A stretch of DNA of 27,271 nt, taken from IMG/VR virus record IMGVR_UViG_3300049216_000572, positions 1-27,271 of that record; one strand, given 5' to 3'. Position numbers and translations under genes: made by a program. Source of the DNA: a virus. Under the pieces are notes generated by a model. That model was not told the origin of the DNA. It saw only the letters and a list, made by a program, of their open reading frames with translations, and did not search any database. This document shows positions 4,490 to 14,111 of the stretch, in pieces (the first letter of the stretch is position 1; every line of letters starts with the position of its first letter).

Positions 4490-5530
4490 TCAGGTTCGCG
4501 CTATGAACGAAAAATGTCTGCGTAGATGCAGGATGGGCTTTTCTAGGCACCACCAGGAGAATGCAGCAAAAGCCAAAATTGGGAAAAAGGACGCCAGAAA
4601 GTTTAGCCACCATGTATTTGTGGCGGGAAAGGACGCGCGAATGGCCTGCTGAATGGGGTTACCGTAGAGATATATCCCATAAGATAGGTCGCCCGGCAGC
4701 GTCGGAATTCGTGTTGCACCAATGAAAACAGTCATATAGACGGTGACTGGAACAATTATAAGGTTCAGCAGTGGAATAGACATCCATGGCTGTGGCCGGA
4801 TGAGCGATACAGCCATGCAGAATAAGATGCAGGCTGCAAAGATGTGCCAATCATACGGGATGTGTTCGCGCCAAAGATAGGCGGATATCCCTAGCAGGAA
4901 GGAAACAAAGAGTTTTGATCCTTCGCCGGTGAAAGCATTGCCGCCGAACCCAGCCAGTCCGACTGCTAAGAATAAGCAAGCGAGCGCAAGCGGGAATAAG
5001 CGTTTGTGCAAAAGTTTGAAGATAATTATCGTCGACATGAGGCCGTAACATCCGAACTCATAGGGCACTGTCCAGAGTGACCAGTTAACGGCTGATTTCG
5101 GGTTATGGCTAAACACGGCTGGCAAATAATAGTTAATCCAGCCAAATATATTAGTCATATAATGCCATGTCTGCATATTTTCATAATAACTACGAAGCGG
5201 CAGTTCAGTAAAAATACCCCCTAGCACGAATGCTGATAATGTAACCTCAATGAATAGAGCCGGGAATATCCTCAGTCCGCGATTTATAAGGAAGTTTTTT
5301 AGGCCTAGACGCATCGCGCTTCCAGTTATGAGAAAGCCGCTCAGGGCAAAAAACATCACCAGTATTGCGTAGCTATACAGCCATATGCCTTGAGATGAAT
5401 CGTAATTCCGCCCGGTTGCAACTGTCTCTGCATGAATAAATACGACAGAAAAAGCCAAGGCCATGCGCAGAAAACCAAAACCGGGTGCAAGTCCACGGTT
5501 AGCGTCAATGATACTACCTATACTTTTCAT
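4490..5530 (-). CDS. Membrane O-acyltransferase (acyltransferase family 3), likely O-antigen modifying
   Basis: A 346-residue polytopic membrane protein with about ten hydrophobic helices. It carries the family signature: FLRMALAFSVVFIHAE near residues 20-35 contains the Arg and the catalytic-type His, and MFFALSGFLITG at about 59-70 corresponds to the second-helix motif. It ends with a Trp-rich helix (FAAFSWWCLEKPILHLRRHF), a normal family C-terminus, so it appears complete. Family members acetylate sugars of lipopolysaccharide, exopolysaccharide or peptidoglycan; phage-encoded ones often change the O-antigen of lysogens. It is transcribed against the structural genes and has lower GC and no clear ribosome-binding site. 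Base composition and orientation indicate recent acquisition. The substrate cannot be read from sequence. Confidence 0.88.
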   Translation of the reverse strand: MKSIGSIIDANRGLAPGFGFLRMALAFSVVFIHAETVATGRNYDSSQGIWLYSYAILVMFFALSGFLITGSAMRLGLKNFLINRGLRIFPALFIEVTLSAFVLGGIFTELPLRSYYENMQTWHYMTNIFGWINYYLPAVFSHNPKSAVNWSLWTVPYEFGCYGLMSTIIIFKLLHKRLFPLALACLFLAVGLAGFGGNAFTGEGSKLFVSFLLGISAYLWREHIPYDWHIFAACILFCMAVSLIRPQPWMSIPLLNLIIVPVTVYMTVFIGATRIPTLPGDLSYGIYLYGNPIQQAIRASFPATNTWWLNFLASFFPILAFAAFSWWCLEKPILHLRRHFSFIART

Positions 5531-9490: not shown

Positions 9491-10946
9491 AGGTAAACTC
9501 ACGCCCCTGACGGTGAGTCCTGCGCCCGCGCCGGGCTTTTTCGGCAGGCTGGCGACCGGCGTGCGTTACGCCATTCGCGGCGTCGCGCCGGATAACTGGT
9601 TCGGCCCGTTGCAACCGCTGGCCCCCATCGCCCCCGGCTTTACCGAACCCAGGCGGTTCGATTACCGGTCAGGCATCAATATCCAGTATCAGCCGCGCGG
9701 GGAGGAAGGCATATCCTTCGCCCAGATGCGGGCGCTGGCCGACAGTTACGACCTGCTGCGGCTGGTCATCGAAACCCGTAAGGATCAGGTCGAGAAACTG
9801 CGTTGGAATATCCGCCCCAAAATTCCGGGCGGTTCGGTCCCAGGCGGCTCCATAAGGGCATCCTCCGATCCGCGAATCCTGGCGCTGGAGGCATTCTTCC
9901 GCAAGCCGGACGGCCTCAATCGCTGGGGCGCATGGCTGCGCATGTTGCTGGAGGATCTGTTCGTGCTGGATGCCCCCGCCCTTTATAAGGTGCGGGATGC
10001 GAACGGCGCGCTGCTGGCGCTGGAGCCGGTGGACGGCGCGACGATCAAATTGCTGATCGACGATCAGGGCCGCACGCCCTTGCCGCCGGACCCCGCCTAT
10101 CAACAGGTGCTGCACGGTGTGCCCAAGGCGGATTTTTCGCGCGACGAGCTGCTGTATCTGCCGCGCAATCCGCGCACCGCAAAACTTTACGGTTTTTCCC
10201 CGGTGGAACAGATCGTCACCACGGTCAATATCGCGCTGCGCCGCCAATTGGCCCAGTTGCAATATTTCACCGAGGGCAACATGCCCGAGGCGATCATCGG
10301 CGTACCCCAGGGCTGGACGATGGACCAGATCGCGCAGTTTCAGGAATATTGGGACACGATCCTGTCGGGCAACACGGCGGAACGGCGGCATACCAAATTC
10401 GTGCCGGCCGATTTTCGCTATCAGCCGATGCGCGATGCGCCGCTGAAGGACGATTTCGACGAATGGCTGGCGCGGGTCGTCTGCTACGCCTTTTCCACCT
10501 CGCCCGCGCCCTTCACCCGCCAGATGAACCGCGCCACCGCCGACAACGCCCAGGAAATGGCGCTGGAGGAAGGGCTGGCCCCGGTCATGCTGTGGATCAA
10601 GGGGCTGGCCGACCGGGTGATCGAGGACGATTTCGGCTGCGGCGATCTGGAATTCGTCTGGATCGACGAGAAGGCCATCGACCCGCTGCGCCAGGCGCAG
10701 ATCACCGACATCAAGCTGAAATCCGGCCTCAAAACCATCAACGAAGCGCGGGCCGAGGCCGGGGACGACCCGATCGACGGCGGCGATGCGCCCCTGATCT
10801 ATACCGCCGCCGGCGCCGTGACGCTGGCCAGCGTTTTGGGTGGAAATTCTGAAACCCCTCACCCCGACCCTCTCCCTCAAGGGGCGAGGGAGACAGAAAA
10901 TCCCTCGCCCCTTGAGGGAGAGGGTGGCCGCGAAGCGGACGGGTGA
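9480..10946 (+). CDS. Portal protein
   Basis: The portal forms the dodecameric ring at one capsid vertex through which DNA passes and to which terminase and connectors dock. The product from ATG 9480 has 488 residues, a normal portal length. Recognisable parts are ISFAQMRALADSYDLLRLVI followed by KDQVEKLRWNI near residues 75-110, LYLPRNPRTAKLYGFSPVEQ in the middle, YFTEGNMPEAIIGVPQGW, and SPAPFTRQMNRATADNAQEM near residue 345, then the long stem helix. The frame is open upstream to 9357 but that part overlies the previous gene. The last roughly 30 residues (after VTLASVLGG) are encoded by an intergenic-type palindromic repeat that has been captured into the reading frame and supplies the stop codon. 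Confidence 0.9.
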   Translation: MPPEGKLTPLTVSPAPAPGFFGRLATGVRYAIRGVAPDNWFGPLQPLAPIAPGFTEPRRFDYRSGINIQYQPRGEEGISFAQMRALADSYDLLRLVIETRKDQVEKLRWNIRPKIPGGSVPGGSIRASSDPRILALEAFFRKPDGLNRWGAWLRMLLEDLFVLDAPALYKVRDANGALLALEPVDGATIKLLIDDQGRTPLPPDPAYQQVLHGVPKADFSRDELLYLPRNPRTAKLYGFSPVEQIVTTVNIALRRQLAQLQYFTEGNMPEAIIGVPQGWTMDQIAQFQEYWDTILSGNTAERRHTKFVPADFRYQPMRDAPLKDDFDEWLARVVCYAFSTSPAPFTRQMNRATADNAQEMALEEGLAPVMLWIKGLADRVIEDDFGCGDLEFVWIDEKAIDPLRQAQITDIKLKSGLKTINEARAEAGDDPIDGGDAPLIYTAAGAVTLASVLGGNSETPHPDPLPQGARETENPSPLEGEGGREADG

Positions 10947-10978: not shown

Positions 10979-11776
10979 ATGAAACTCTACGCTGAAATCA
11001 CGAAGATCGACCGGGACCGGCATATGGTCTTCGGCTATGCCTCGACCGAGGCGCTGGACAGTCAGGGGGAGGTCGTGAAGCGCGAGGCGCTTGAGGCGGC
11101 CCTGCCCGACTATATGCGCTTCGCCAATATCCGCGAGATGCATCAGCCCTCCGCCGTCGGCGTGGCGACCGAGGCGGAACTGGATGCGCGCGGCCTGTAT
11201 CTGGCGGCGAAAATCATCGATCCCGTGGCCTGGGAAAAGGTGACGTCCGGCGTTTACAAGGGCTTTTCCATCGGCGGGCGCGTCGTCGCCCGCGATCAGG
11301 CGCAAAAACATGTCATCACCGGCGTCACCCTGTCGGAGATCAGCCTGGTCGATCGCCCGGCCAATCCCGAGGCGGTGTTCACGATGTTCAAGCTGGATGA
11401 GGCCGGTTTAGGAAAGATCGGCGCGCGCAATTCCGCCGGCGATCTTTCGATGATCCAGGCGATCCACGATCAGGCGGTGGCGCTGGGCGCATCCTGCGAC
11501 GGCTGCGATGAGATGGATGATGATGGTGGCGACGATAATATGAAGATCGCCGGATTGATCGCGGAACGCGATGCGCTGAAAAAAGTGCTGGCGTCGGTTA
11601 TGTACGAACGCTTACCGGAACGTAAAGCCGCGCTGCGCGCCGTCCCCATCGATAAATCCGCCGATATCGCCAAAAGCGCCGCCGAACCTGTCACGACCGA
11701 CCCGATCGAACTGACCAAACGGGCGCTACGCCGACCGATGACCCTGGCGCAGATCGAGAAGATCGCGAACGGTTAG
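10979..11776 (+). CDS. Prohead maturation protease, XkdF-like (peptidase S78_2)
   Basis: This protease processes capsid or scaffold proteins during head assembly. The product has 265 residues, starting at ATG 10979 with AAGGAG seven bases upstream. The N-terminus AEITKIDRDRHMVFGYASTE, then DSQGEVV, His55 in REMHQPSAVG, the segment WEKVTSGVYKGFSIGGRV, and Ser122 in SEISLVDRPANPEA follow the XkdF/HK97-protease pattern. The C-terminal 120 residues are a variable tail with an acidic Cys/Asp stretch (GASCDGCDEMDDDGGDDN) and a helical end, which may act as scaffold-like delta region. Its stop codon interlocks with that of the convergent ferritin-like gene (TTAG at 11773-11776). Confidence 0.87.
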   Translation: MKLYAEITKIDRDRHMVFGYASTEALDSQGEVVKREALEAALPDYMRFANIREMHQPSAVGVATEAELDARGLYLAAKIIDPVAWEKVTSGVYKGFSIGGRVVARDQAQKHVITGVTLSEISLVDRPANPEAVFTMFKLDEAGLGKIGARNSAGDLSMIQAIHDQAVALGASCDGCDEMDDDGGDDNMKIAGLIAERDALKKVLASVMYERLPERKAALRAVPIDKSADIAKSAAEPVTTDPIELTKRALRRPMTLAQIEKIANG

Positions 11777-12483
11777 CCCACCGCCGCAAATAACTGACCG
11801 GCGGTCGTAGCGGCATTCTCGATGCCGGACGGCAGGGTCGCGACTGCGCCGGTCAGCGACGACAGGAATTTCCGGTACAGGCGGGTTTCGATCAGGCACA
11901 GGCCGCGTATATGGCCGGGGTCCAGCGCCGTGAGTTTTTCCAGCCGTTCCGCCATATCGGTCAGATGGCCGTTTTCCTCAGCCAGCAGCCCTTTCAGCGA
12001 TACCATATGGCCCGCGCGGTTCAGTGCCGCATGGTACAGGCGATAGGCCCAGACGGCGCGGAATTCCACGATCATCGACATGATCAGATAGGCGATGCGT
12101 CTATCAGGCCGAGGGGGCAGGGCGCGGACGATCTCGGCCTCCAGCCGGTGGAAATACCGCCGCGCGGCGAAGGGAACGACCAGGTCGTCCGCATCGTATT
12201 CCATCGTTCGGCCCGCCTCGCGGTCGGCATGGCGCTTGAAGAAGAAGGCATGGCGGGTTTCGTCCGCCAGATGTTTCAGCGTCGGCTGTTCGATGCCCGC
12301 GCCATGCTGGGTCGCCATGATCTTGTGGCTGCCCAGATGTTCCAGCATCGACAGCGTATTCAGAAAACGGGCGTGCGAGGGCCGGTGGGCGATAAAGCCT
12401 GCGAACATCGCATCTGTCGGGGCCGCCAGTTGGGCGTTGTCATGCTCGAACGCGGAAACGAGGGATTCGATCTCAATTTTCAT
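11773..12483 (-). CDS. Ferritin-like di-iron carboxylate protein (antisense cargo gene)
   Basis: A 236-residue helical protein from ATG 12483 with a full set of di-iron ligands in the ferritin-like order: Glu48 (SMLEHLGSH), Glu75-x-x-His78 (DETRH), Glu140 (MIVEFRAVW) and Glu170-x-x-His173 (EENGH). This E/ExxH/E/ExxH pattern is shared by rubrerythrin, AurF-like and MiaE-type oxygenases, but I cannot place it in one of them. It would use iron to oxidise a substrate or to handle peroxide. It lies antisense between protease and capsid genes, its stop overlapping that of the protease. No clear ribosome-binding site is seen, and upstream in-frame starts exist (for example about 12531-12537). It looks like cargo unrelated to capsid assembly. 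Confidence 0.8.
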   Translation of the reverse strand: MKIEIESLVSAFEHDNAQLAAPTDAMFAGFIAHRPSHARFLNTLSMLEHLGSHKIMATQHGAGIEQPTLKHLADETRHAFFFKRHADREAGRTMEYDADDLVVPFAARRYFHRLEAEIVRALPPRPDRRIAYLIMSMIVEFRAVWAYRLYHAALNRAGHMVSLKGLLAEENGHLTDMAERLEKLTALDPGHIRGLCLIETRLYRKFLSSLTGAVATLPSGIENAATTAGQLFAAVG

Positions 12484-12638
12484 GGATCTAGGGGTAATTC
12501 GGCGCGCGCGCCGATGCAAGCCCTTACGCATAGACATTCCGGCCGGTGAAGCCCGCCGCCCCGGAACTTCAAACACGCCCTTGGGCAAGGCGCAGGGAAC
12601 GCCGGGAGGCGTCCCGTCCCCTATAGATGGAGCCTTTT

Positions 12639-14111
12639 ATGAATAGCGATACGACAGCCGAAACACTGGCGCTGATCAAGGATGCGCTGGGCAGACCCGA
12701 CAGCCTCGCCAAAACGATCACCACCGGAACCGGCCTGCTTGCCTACGACTTGCAGCCCTCCGCCAAGAACCTCTACCCGGCAGCGACGCCGATCCGCAAT
12801 GTGCTGCCCCGCGTCGGCGGCGGCACGGGTACGGCGACCAATTGGCGGCAGGTCAACGCCATCATCGGGTCCGGCTGGGACACGATGGGGTGGGTGCCCG
12901 AAGGCCAGCGTTCGGGCCGGATGAGCTATAATACCTCCTCCCGCTCCGCCGCCTACGCCACGGTGGGGGAGGAGGATTCGGTGACGTTCGAGGCCGTGTC
13001 CGCCGCCCAGGGGTTCGAGGATGTGCAGGCCACCGCCACCATGCGGCTGTTGCAGAAGATGATGTTGAAGGAGGAAAACGCCTTTCTGGGCGGCAACGGC
13101 TCGCTTCAGCTTGGGGTTCCTGCGACGCCGGTGCTGACCGTCGGCGGGTCGGCGGGAACATTGCCCGCCGCGACTTATTCCGTGATCGTCGTGGCCCTGA
13201 CCTATGAGGGCTATCGCAATTCCAGCCTCGCAGCCGGGGTCGCCACCACCAAAAGCATCGCCGGGGCCGACGGCAACAACTTTACGCTGAACGGCGGATC
13301 GTCCGCCCCGTCCGCCAATGCCACGCAGGCCGTGACTTTGGGCGAGACGTTATACGCCACGGTCGCGCCCAGCATCGGCGCGGTCGGCTATGCCTGGTTC
13401 GCCGGCGCGGCAGGGTCGGAAAAGTTGCAGGCGATCACCACCGTCAACAGCGTCGCCTTGTCCGCGCCGCTCGCCACCGGCACGCAAGCTGCGTCGGCGG
13501 TGACGGCGGACAGCTCCGCCAATCCTGGGCTGGCCTATGACGGGTTGTTGACCTCAGCCTTGAAGGCCGGGTCGGGGGCTTACGTGAATTATCTAAGCCA
13601 GAATTCGGGCCTGACCGCATCGGGGCGCGGATCGGTGAACGAGATCGATCTGATGCTGGAGAAAATGTGGGACCAGTACGAGGTCAGTCCGACCGTCCTT
13701 TATGTCAACAGCCAGGAACAGCGCAACATCACCAATAAGGTGCTGAGCAGCGCCTCATCCCCGCTGTTGCGCTTTACTACGGACGGGAAAGACCCGTTCG
13801 CGATCGTGGCGAACGGGGTGGTCGAATATTACTACAACCCCTTCGCGCTGGACGGCGGATATAAAATCCCGGTCAAAATCCACCCCTTCGTGCCGCCGGG
13901 CACGATCGTCGGCTGGTCGGAAAACCTGCCGGCGCAATATCAGTCCAGCAACGTGCCGAACGTGGCCGAGGTCAAAACCCGGCGGGATTATTACCGCATG
14001 GACTGGCCGCTAAAGACCCGCGCGTATGAATTCGGCGTCTATGCCGAAGAAGTGCTCGCGGTCTACGCCCCCTTCGCCATGGGCGTCATCGGCAATATCG
14101 CCAACGTTTGA
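12639..14111 (+). CDS. Major capsid protein (HK97-fold) with an inserted Ig-like domain
   Basis: This is the main shell protein, 490 residues from ATG 12639 with GGAG six bases upstream. The N-terminal part contains an N-arm and E-loop-like region (YPAATPIRNVLPRVGGGTGT; WVPEGQRSGRMSYNT), followed by the spine helix FEDVQATATMRLLQKMMLKE. The C-terminal part (GSVNEIDLMLEKMWDQYEVS; RDYYRMDWPLKTRAYEFGVY) is the axial domain and end. Residues about 160-295 form a Thr/Ala/Gly-rich beta insertion (PAATYSVIVVALTYEGYRNS) resembling an Ig/FN3 domain, probably displayed on the outer surface. A short hairpin (about 12596-12617) precedes the ribosome-binding site. The antisense cargo gene separates it from the protease. 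Confidence 0.9.
   Translation: MNSDTTAETLALIKDALGRPDSLAKTITTGTGLLAYDLQPSAKNLYPAATPIRNVLPRVGGGTGTATNWRQVNAIIGSGWDTMGWVPEGQRSGRMSYNTSSRSAAYATVGEEDSVTFEAVSAAQGFEDVQATATMRLLQKMMLKEENAFLGGNGSLQLGVPATPVLTVGGSAGTLPAATYSVIVVALTYEGYRNSSLAAGVATTKSIAGADGNNFTLNGGSSAPSANATQAVTLGETLYATVAPSIGAVGYAWFAGAAGSEKLQAITTVNSVALSAPLATGTQAASAVTADSSANPGLAYDGLLTSALKAGSGAYVNYLSQNSGLTASGRGSVNEIDLMLEKMWDQYEVSPTVLYVNSQEQRNITNKVLSSASSPLLRFTTDGKDPFAIVANGVVEYYYNPFALDGGYKIPVKIHPFVPPGTIVGWSENLPAQYQSSNVPNVAEVKTRRDYYRMDWPLKTRAYEFGVYAEEVLAVYAPFAMGVIGNIANV

Follow-up and report, generated by a model that had tools for sequence, protein, structure and literature searches.

What does a gene for a ferritin-like protein do on the antisense strand of a phage head operon, and how did it come to lie there? 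The window analysed here, a 27,271-base virus record, encodes a CI-like repressor (689-1348) besides terminase, decoration, portal, protease, capsid, neck and tail proteins; this head and tail gene set together with the repressor indicates that the source virus is probably a temperate phage. The gene in question, hereafter FERR, occupies positions 11773-12483 on the minus strand. It is flanked by the prohead protease gene (10979-11776, plus strand, Pfam S78, with an alternative GTG start at 10943) and by the capsid gene (12627-14111, plus strand), which was recognised by its match to phrog_13692 and sits between the portal and protease genes and the neck genes. The antisense position between protease and capsid, noted in an earlier reading of the letters alone (the sequence-only reading), was thus confirmed.

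FERR is an open reading frame of 236 amino acids with an ATG start and a TAA stop. Its GC content at the three codon positions (0.67/0.44/0.76) was similar to that of the adjacent protease gene (0.66/0.42/0.77), and comparison with its phage relatives gave a dN/dS of about 0.23. From these two results we concluded that FERR is a real gene under selection. Fifteen further phage contigs carried it, with 62-98% identity in the aligned pairs. Profile matching against Pfam, NCBIfam and PHROG gave no family match, the only family traces being weak ones to aldehyde deformylating oxygenase (ADO), and tblastn of the protein against phage and plasmid collections gave no matches. A Caballeronia plasmid match obtained with one of the relatives as query (L040, E 4) was weak and looked like chance. 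A scan for the sigma-70 consensus, a scan confined to that promoter type, recognised no promoter site for FERR.

The sequence-only reading had described a complete E/ExxH/E/ExxH ligand set. All of these residues were identical in 31 of 31 aligned phage and bacterial relatives, at identities down to 37%: E48 (codon 12340-12342), E75xxH78 (12250-12261), E140 (12064-12066) and E170xxH173 (11965-11976), all on the minus strand. The predicted structure agreed with the di-iron ferritin-like protein that had been proposed. With an alignment of phage and bacterial sequences AlphaFold2 returned an all-helical model (pLDDT 92.7, pTM 0.87); with the phage sequences alone the model was poor (pLDDT 69), and it was the addition of the bacterial relatives that raised the score. 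The top structural matches, in a comparison made with VIA-align and covering the families listed there, were ferritin-like di-iron proteins, namely MiaE (Z 17.6; 185 residues, rmsd 2.6, 15% identity) and proteins with ADO activity (Z 17). A Foldseek search with the model found nothing significant in PDB or BFVD. The fold of FERR is confidently predicted to be ferritin-like.

Among phages with a related capsid the content of the protease-capsid gap varied: it held a full FERR, a short form of FERR, other cargo or almost nothing, and in five of them it measured 127-338 bp and contained no gene. Because the gap content varies in this way among related phages, we regard the gap as a hot spot, with FERR one cargo among several, and the earlier views that it had been inserted and that it is no standard head gene were both borne out. 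The interlocking stop codons that had been pointed out were present at 11773-11776, where the FERR TAA (11773-11775, minus strand) overlaps the protease TAG (11774-11776, plus strand). They were limited to the window and a near-copy, and in the other phages 30-2113 bp separated FERR from the protease gene, so that an antisense effect on protease expression, also suggested at that time, found no support. In three other loci the same gap was filled by antisense genes for secreted proteins with PEP-CTERM-like ends (L090:2671-3579, L102:4058-5741 and L109:4091-6010, all minus strand).

The bacterial relatives pointed to biotin. Full-length relatives were present at 24 bacterial loci with 38-68% identity, and the alphaproteobacterial ones closed bioB-bioF-bioD-bioA-FERR operons. 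FERR was carried by 24 of 142 genomes in the alphaproteobacterial order of genome G021 and by 8 of 96 in a second order of the same class, and in 30 of these 32 copies it directly followed bioA. Within the order of G021, bioB was found in 22 of the 24 genomes with FERR vs 32 of the 118 others (P 3e-9), and among the bioB-containing genomes full-length BioC-like genes, assigned below the curated NCBIfam cut-off, were found in 4 of 22 with FERR vs 25 of 32 without it (P 2e-5); both P values ignore the relatedness of the genomes, and the assemblies may be incomplete. In seven bioB-containing genomes of this order both FERR and a full-length BioC-like gene were missing; these genomes either use another pimeloyl route or are incomplete assemblies. 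Most of the bio-operon genomes searched contained a single strong KAS III and therefore no BioZ candidate. Counting against a biotin role, the gammaproteobacterial and Nitrospirillum copies lay outside bio operons, and several gammaproteobacterial genomes had a bioB-bioC pair. A truncated copy (L041:2578-2784, a 68-amino-acid frame) was found in the same Rhodospirillales MAG as a full-length one (L017). In a midpoint-rooted tree both branches of the deepest drawn split contained bio-linked members, and the phage copies nested within the bacterial tree, grouped with one copy from a Rhodospirillales MAG. From this topology the biotin linkage looks ancestral to the family.

Five genomes in the order of G021 contained both FERR and BioC. 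In all five a pair of genes for a bioG-like hydrolase and bioC adjoined nrdD/nrdG, accompanied by ubiTUV in four and by hemN in one, whereas the pair lay in such an anaerobic island in none of the four FERR-less genomes checked, a small sample on both sides. This placement is what would be predicted if FERR required O2 and bioG-bioC were its anaerobic backup. Together with the avoidance of BioC it suggests that pimeloyl-ACP is made by a route dependent on O2; FERR may thus be the aerobic, O2-consuming route and bioG-bioC a possible backup without oxygen.

An enzyme of this kind was described in 2025. BioE, from Elizabethkingia (EmBioE) and Chlamydia psittaci (CpBioE), is a di-iron oxygenase of the ferritin-like kind and produces the pimeloyl group by cutting long-chain acyl thioesters, and its active site was compared by the authors to that of ADO (Zhang et al. 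2025, PMC12915131). The six ligands of FERR align one to one with those of CpBioE: E48 with E41, E75 and H78 with E68 and H71, E140 with E140, and E170 and H173 with E170 and H173 (PMC12915131). Their spacing is 27/3/62/30/3 in the window and 27/3/69/30/3 in CpBioE, and the distance from the first histidine to the third glutamate ranges over 58-66 in the FERR family vs 69 in BioE. Of 17 other functional CpBioE residues, which lie in the acyl pocket and the ACP interface and whose mutation inactivates the enzyme, seven were the majority residue in the FERR family, the unshifted register scoring far above all slides; three positions, Y147, Y150 and I139, are common to ADO as well. A K-I pair after the glutamate of helix 1 and the tyrosines Y110, Y147 and Y150 are common to FERR and BioE. 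Like the FERR family, BioE is encoded in bacterial biotin operons as an alternative to BioC-BioH, whereas the phage copies of FERR lie outside any bio cluster. A further BioE paper, by Xu et al. (PNAS 2025), is cited by Zhang et al.

There are also differences. The published criterion for BioE is more than 40% identity to EmBioE, and the published list of carriers contains no Alphaproteobacteria and no phages (PMC12915131). FERR, by contrast, is phage-carried, and its alphaproteobacterial and gammaproteobacterial branch falls outside the families listed there; no genuine BioE sequence was found among the Pseudomonadota sampled at class and phylum level. We therefore call FERR BioE-type, short of a proven BioE, a likeness drawn from published residues and spacing rather than from whole sequences. 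In outline the proposed reaction also resembles that of BioI, the P450 of Bacillus subtilis, which cleaves acyl-ACP oxidatively to pimeloyl-ACP (PMC12915131); BioI, however, is a haem enzyme with an unrelated fold.

Taken together, we consider it quite probable that FERR is a phage-encoded, divergent BioE-type oxygenase of alphaproteobacterial origin, carried as cargo in the head operon. The protein would be a soluble di-iron enzyme that, supplied with an electron donor and O2, splits long-chain acyl-ACP or acyl-CoA and so yields pimeloyl-ACP or pimeloyl-CoA, the first committed biotin precursor, from which BioF, BioA, BioD and BioB of the host would complete biotin. The virus would in this way probably help its host to make biotin from fatty acids. 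Phage or lysogen might gain from a higher biotin supply, e.g. for acetyl-CoA carboxylase and membrane lipid synthesis, a benefit that we put forward more loosely than the reaction itself. That the gene may serve the lysogen had been suggested before, and with a CI-like repressor in the record this is possible; among the earlier guesses at function "modified metabolite" came nearest. The phage appears to have acquired FERR from an alphaproteobacterial, Rhodospirillales-like lineage. In Nitrospirillum the family is chromosomal, and its prophages have syntenic head genes with 42-54% identity to the phage; the prophage stretches read contained no copy of FERR. Because of these prophages and the tree grouping, the phage host likely belongs in or near Rhodospirillales.

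Evolution has repeatedly replaced the step with which biotin synthesis begins. If the assignment is right, the FERR family adds an unannotated proteobacterial branch to BioE, the newest of these routes, and would explain the source of the pimeloyl chain in bioBFDA genomes that have no BioC or BioZ candidate. It would also suggest a rule by which an O2-dependent oxygenase is used in air and BioC-BioG is kept among anaerobic genes. A virus with a single biotin gene would be an unusual case of an auxiliary metabolic gene; among the titles and abstract openings of the literature found, none described a phage-borne biotin gene.

Other biotin genes were absent from every phage FERR locus, which would fit a different account, in which the bacterial proteins serve biotin synthesis but the phage protein has moved on to a different acyl substrate, e.g. 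for lipid remodelling in infection, or has its effect by lowering long-chain acyl-ACP instead of through biotin. The same reaction can disturb lipids, as over-expression of EmBioE lowers the fitness of E. coli and long-chain fatty acids are exhausted when BioE is unregulated (PMC12915131). The ligands, however, do not differ between the phage and bio-operon copies, nor do most of the pocket and interface residues that match, and we consider this account improbable.

The best structural matches could be taken to mean that FERR works in another pathway as a di-iron monooxygenase, either a MiaE-like tRNA hydroxylase, in line with the tRNA chemistry once considered, or an ADO. MiaE, the tRNA-(ms2io6A) hydroxylase, has the closest fold, but this fold is common to other di-iron families, its gene context is different, and Pfam MiaE matched none of the 31 members at E 0.1. 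The cyanobacterial ADO has the same fold and ligand pattern, acts on fatty chains and is weakly similar in sequence (E 0.017-0.07); FERR nevertheless scored only 13.3 bits against the ADO model TIGR04059, with its cut-off of 222.65, and the biotin-operon context differs. A similar fold at 13-15% identity is uninformative on substrate, and with the bio-operon linkage of the relatives there is little chance that either assignment is correct.

The C-terminal helix and tail of FERR (LYRKFLSSLTGAVATLPSGIEN..., 11776-11880, minus strand) were not seen in the bacterial relatives, and were common to a group of short phage forms. In six phage contigs (L079, L091, L093, L096, L100 and L106; L195-L200) the minus strand of the gap before the capsid gene encoded a protein of about 100 amino acids, in which the N-terminal helix and the tail ALATMPSGIET were kept and every metal ligand was gone. 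Their pairwise dN/dS of 0.16-0.59 indicated that these forms are apparently still coding and selected. A 189-amino-acid form (L092:5285-5851, minus strand) without E48, helix 2, E140 and the ExxH of helix 4 is likewise a metal-less relative. Such proteins would be expected if the metal core were a passenger and the part selected in the phage were the C-terminal helix and tail, put to another use such as binding a virion or host protein. The full-length copies, on the other hand, keep all ligands at the dN/dS given above, and the tail is missing from many full-length phage copies, which leaves the passenger account very unlikely.

It is extremely unlikely that FERR is an oxidative-stress or iron-storage protein of the ferritin or rubrerythrin type, another of the early suggestions: it is predicted to form a helical bundle with di-iron ligands and several families with the ferritin-like fold store iron or remove peroxide, but none of the 31 members matched Pfam Ferritin or Rubrerythrin at the gathering score (one touched Ferritin at E 0.062), and the biotin-operon linkage and BioC avoidance would be unexpected. 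A fuller version of the BioE-type reading combines both sets of observations: Rhodospirillales-like temperate phages would carry a new BioE branch, an O2-dependent oxygenase that forms the pimeloyl group, for raising the biotin supply of the host, and in part of the clade it would have been reduced to a short protein without metal, with the tail kept for a second, phage-specific task. This combined version we regard as tentative and rather doubtful.

Two other features of the window were recorded. A second antisense gene at 4490-5530 (minus strand), between the terminase and decoration genes, encodes an O-acetyltransferase (phrog_3333; phrog_6705, O-antigen acetylase) and is likely a seroconversion cargo. 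A large inverted repeat, cctcaccccgaccctctccctcaaggggcgaggg ... ccctcgccccttgagggagagggt...ggtgaggggt, spans 10850-10945 where the portal gene ends, and resembles an intergenic repeat element.
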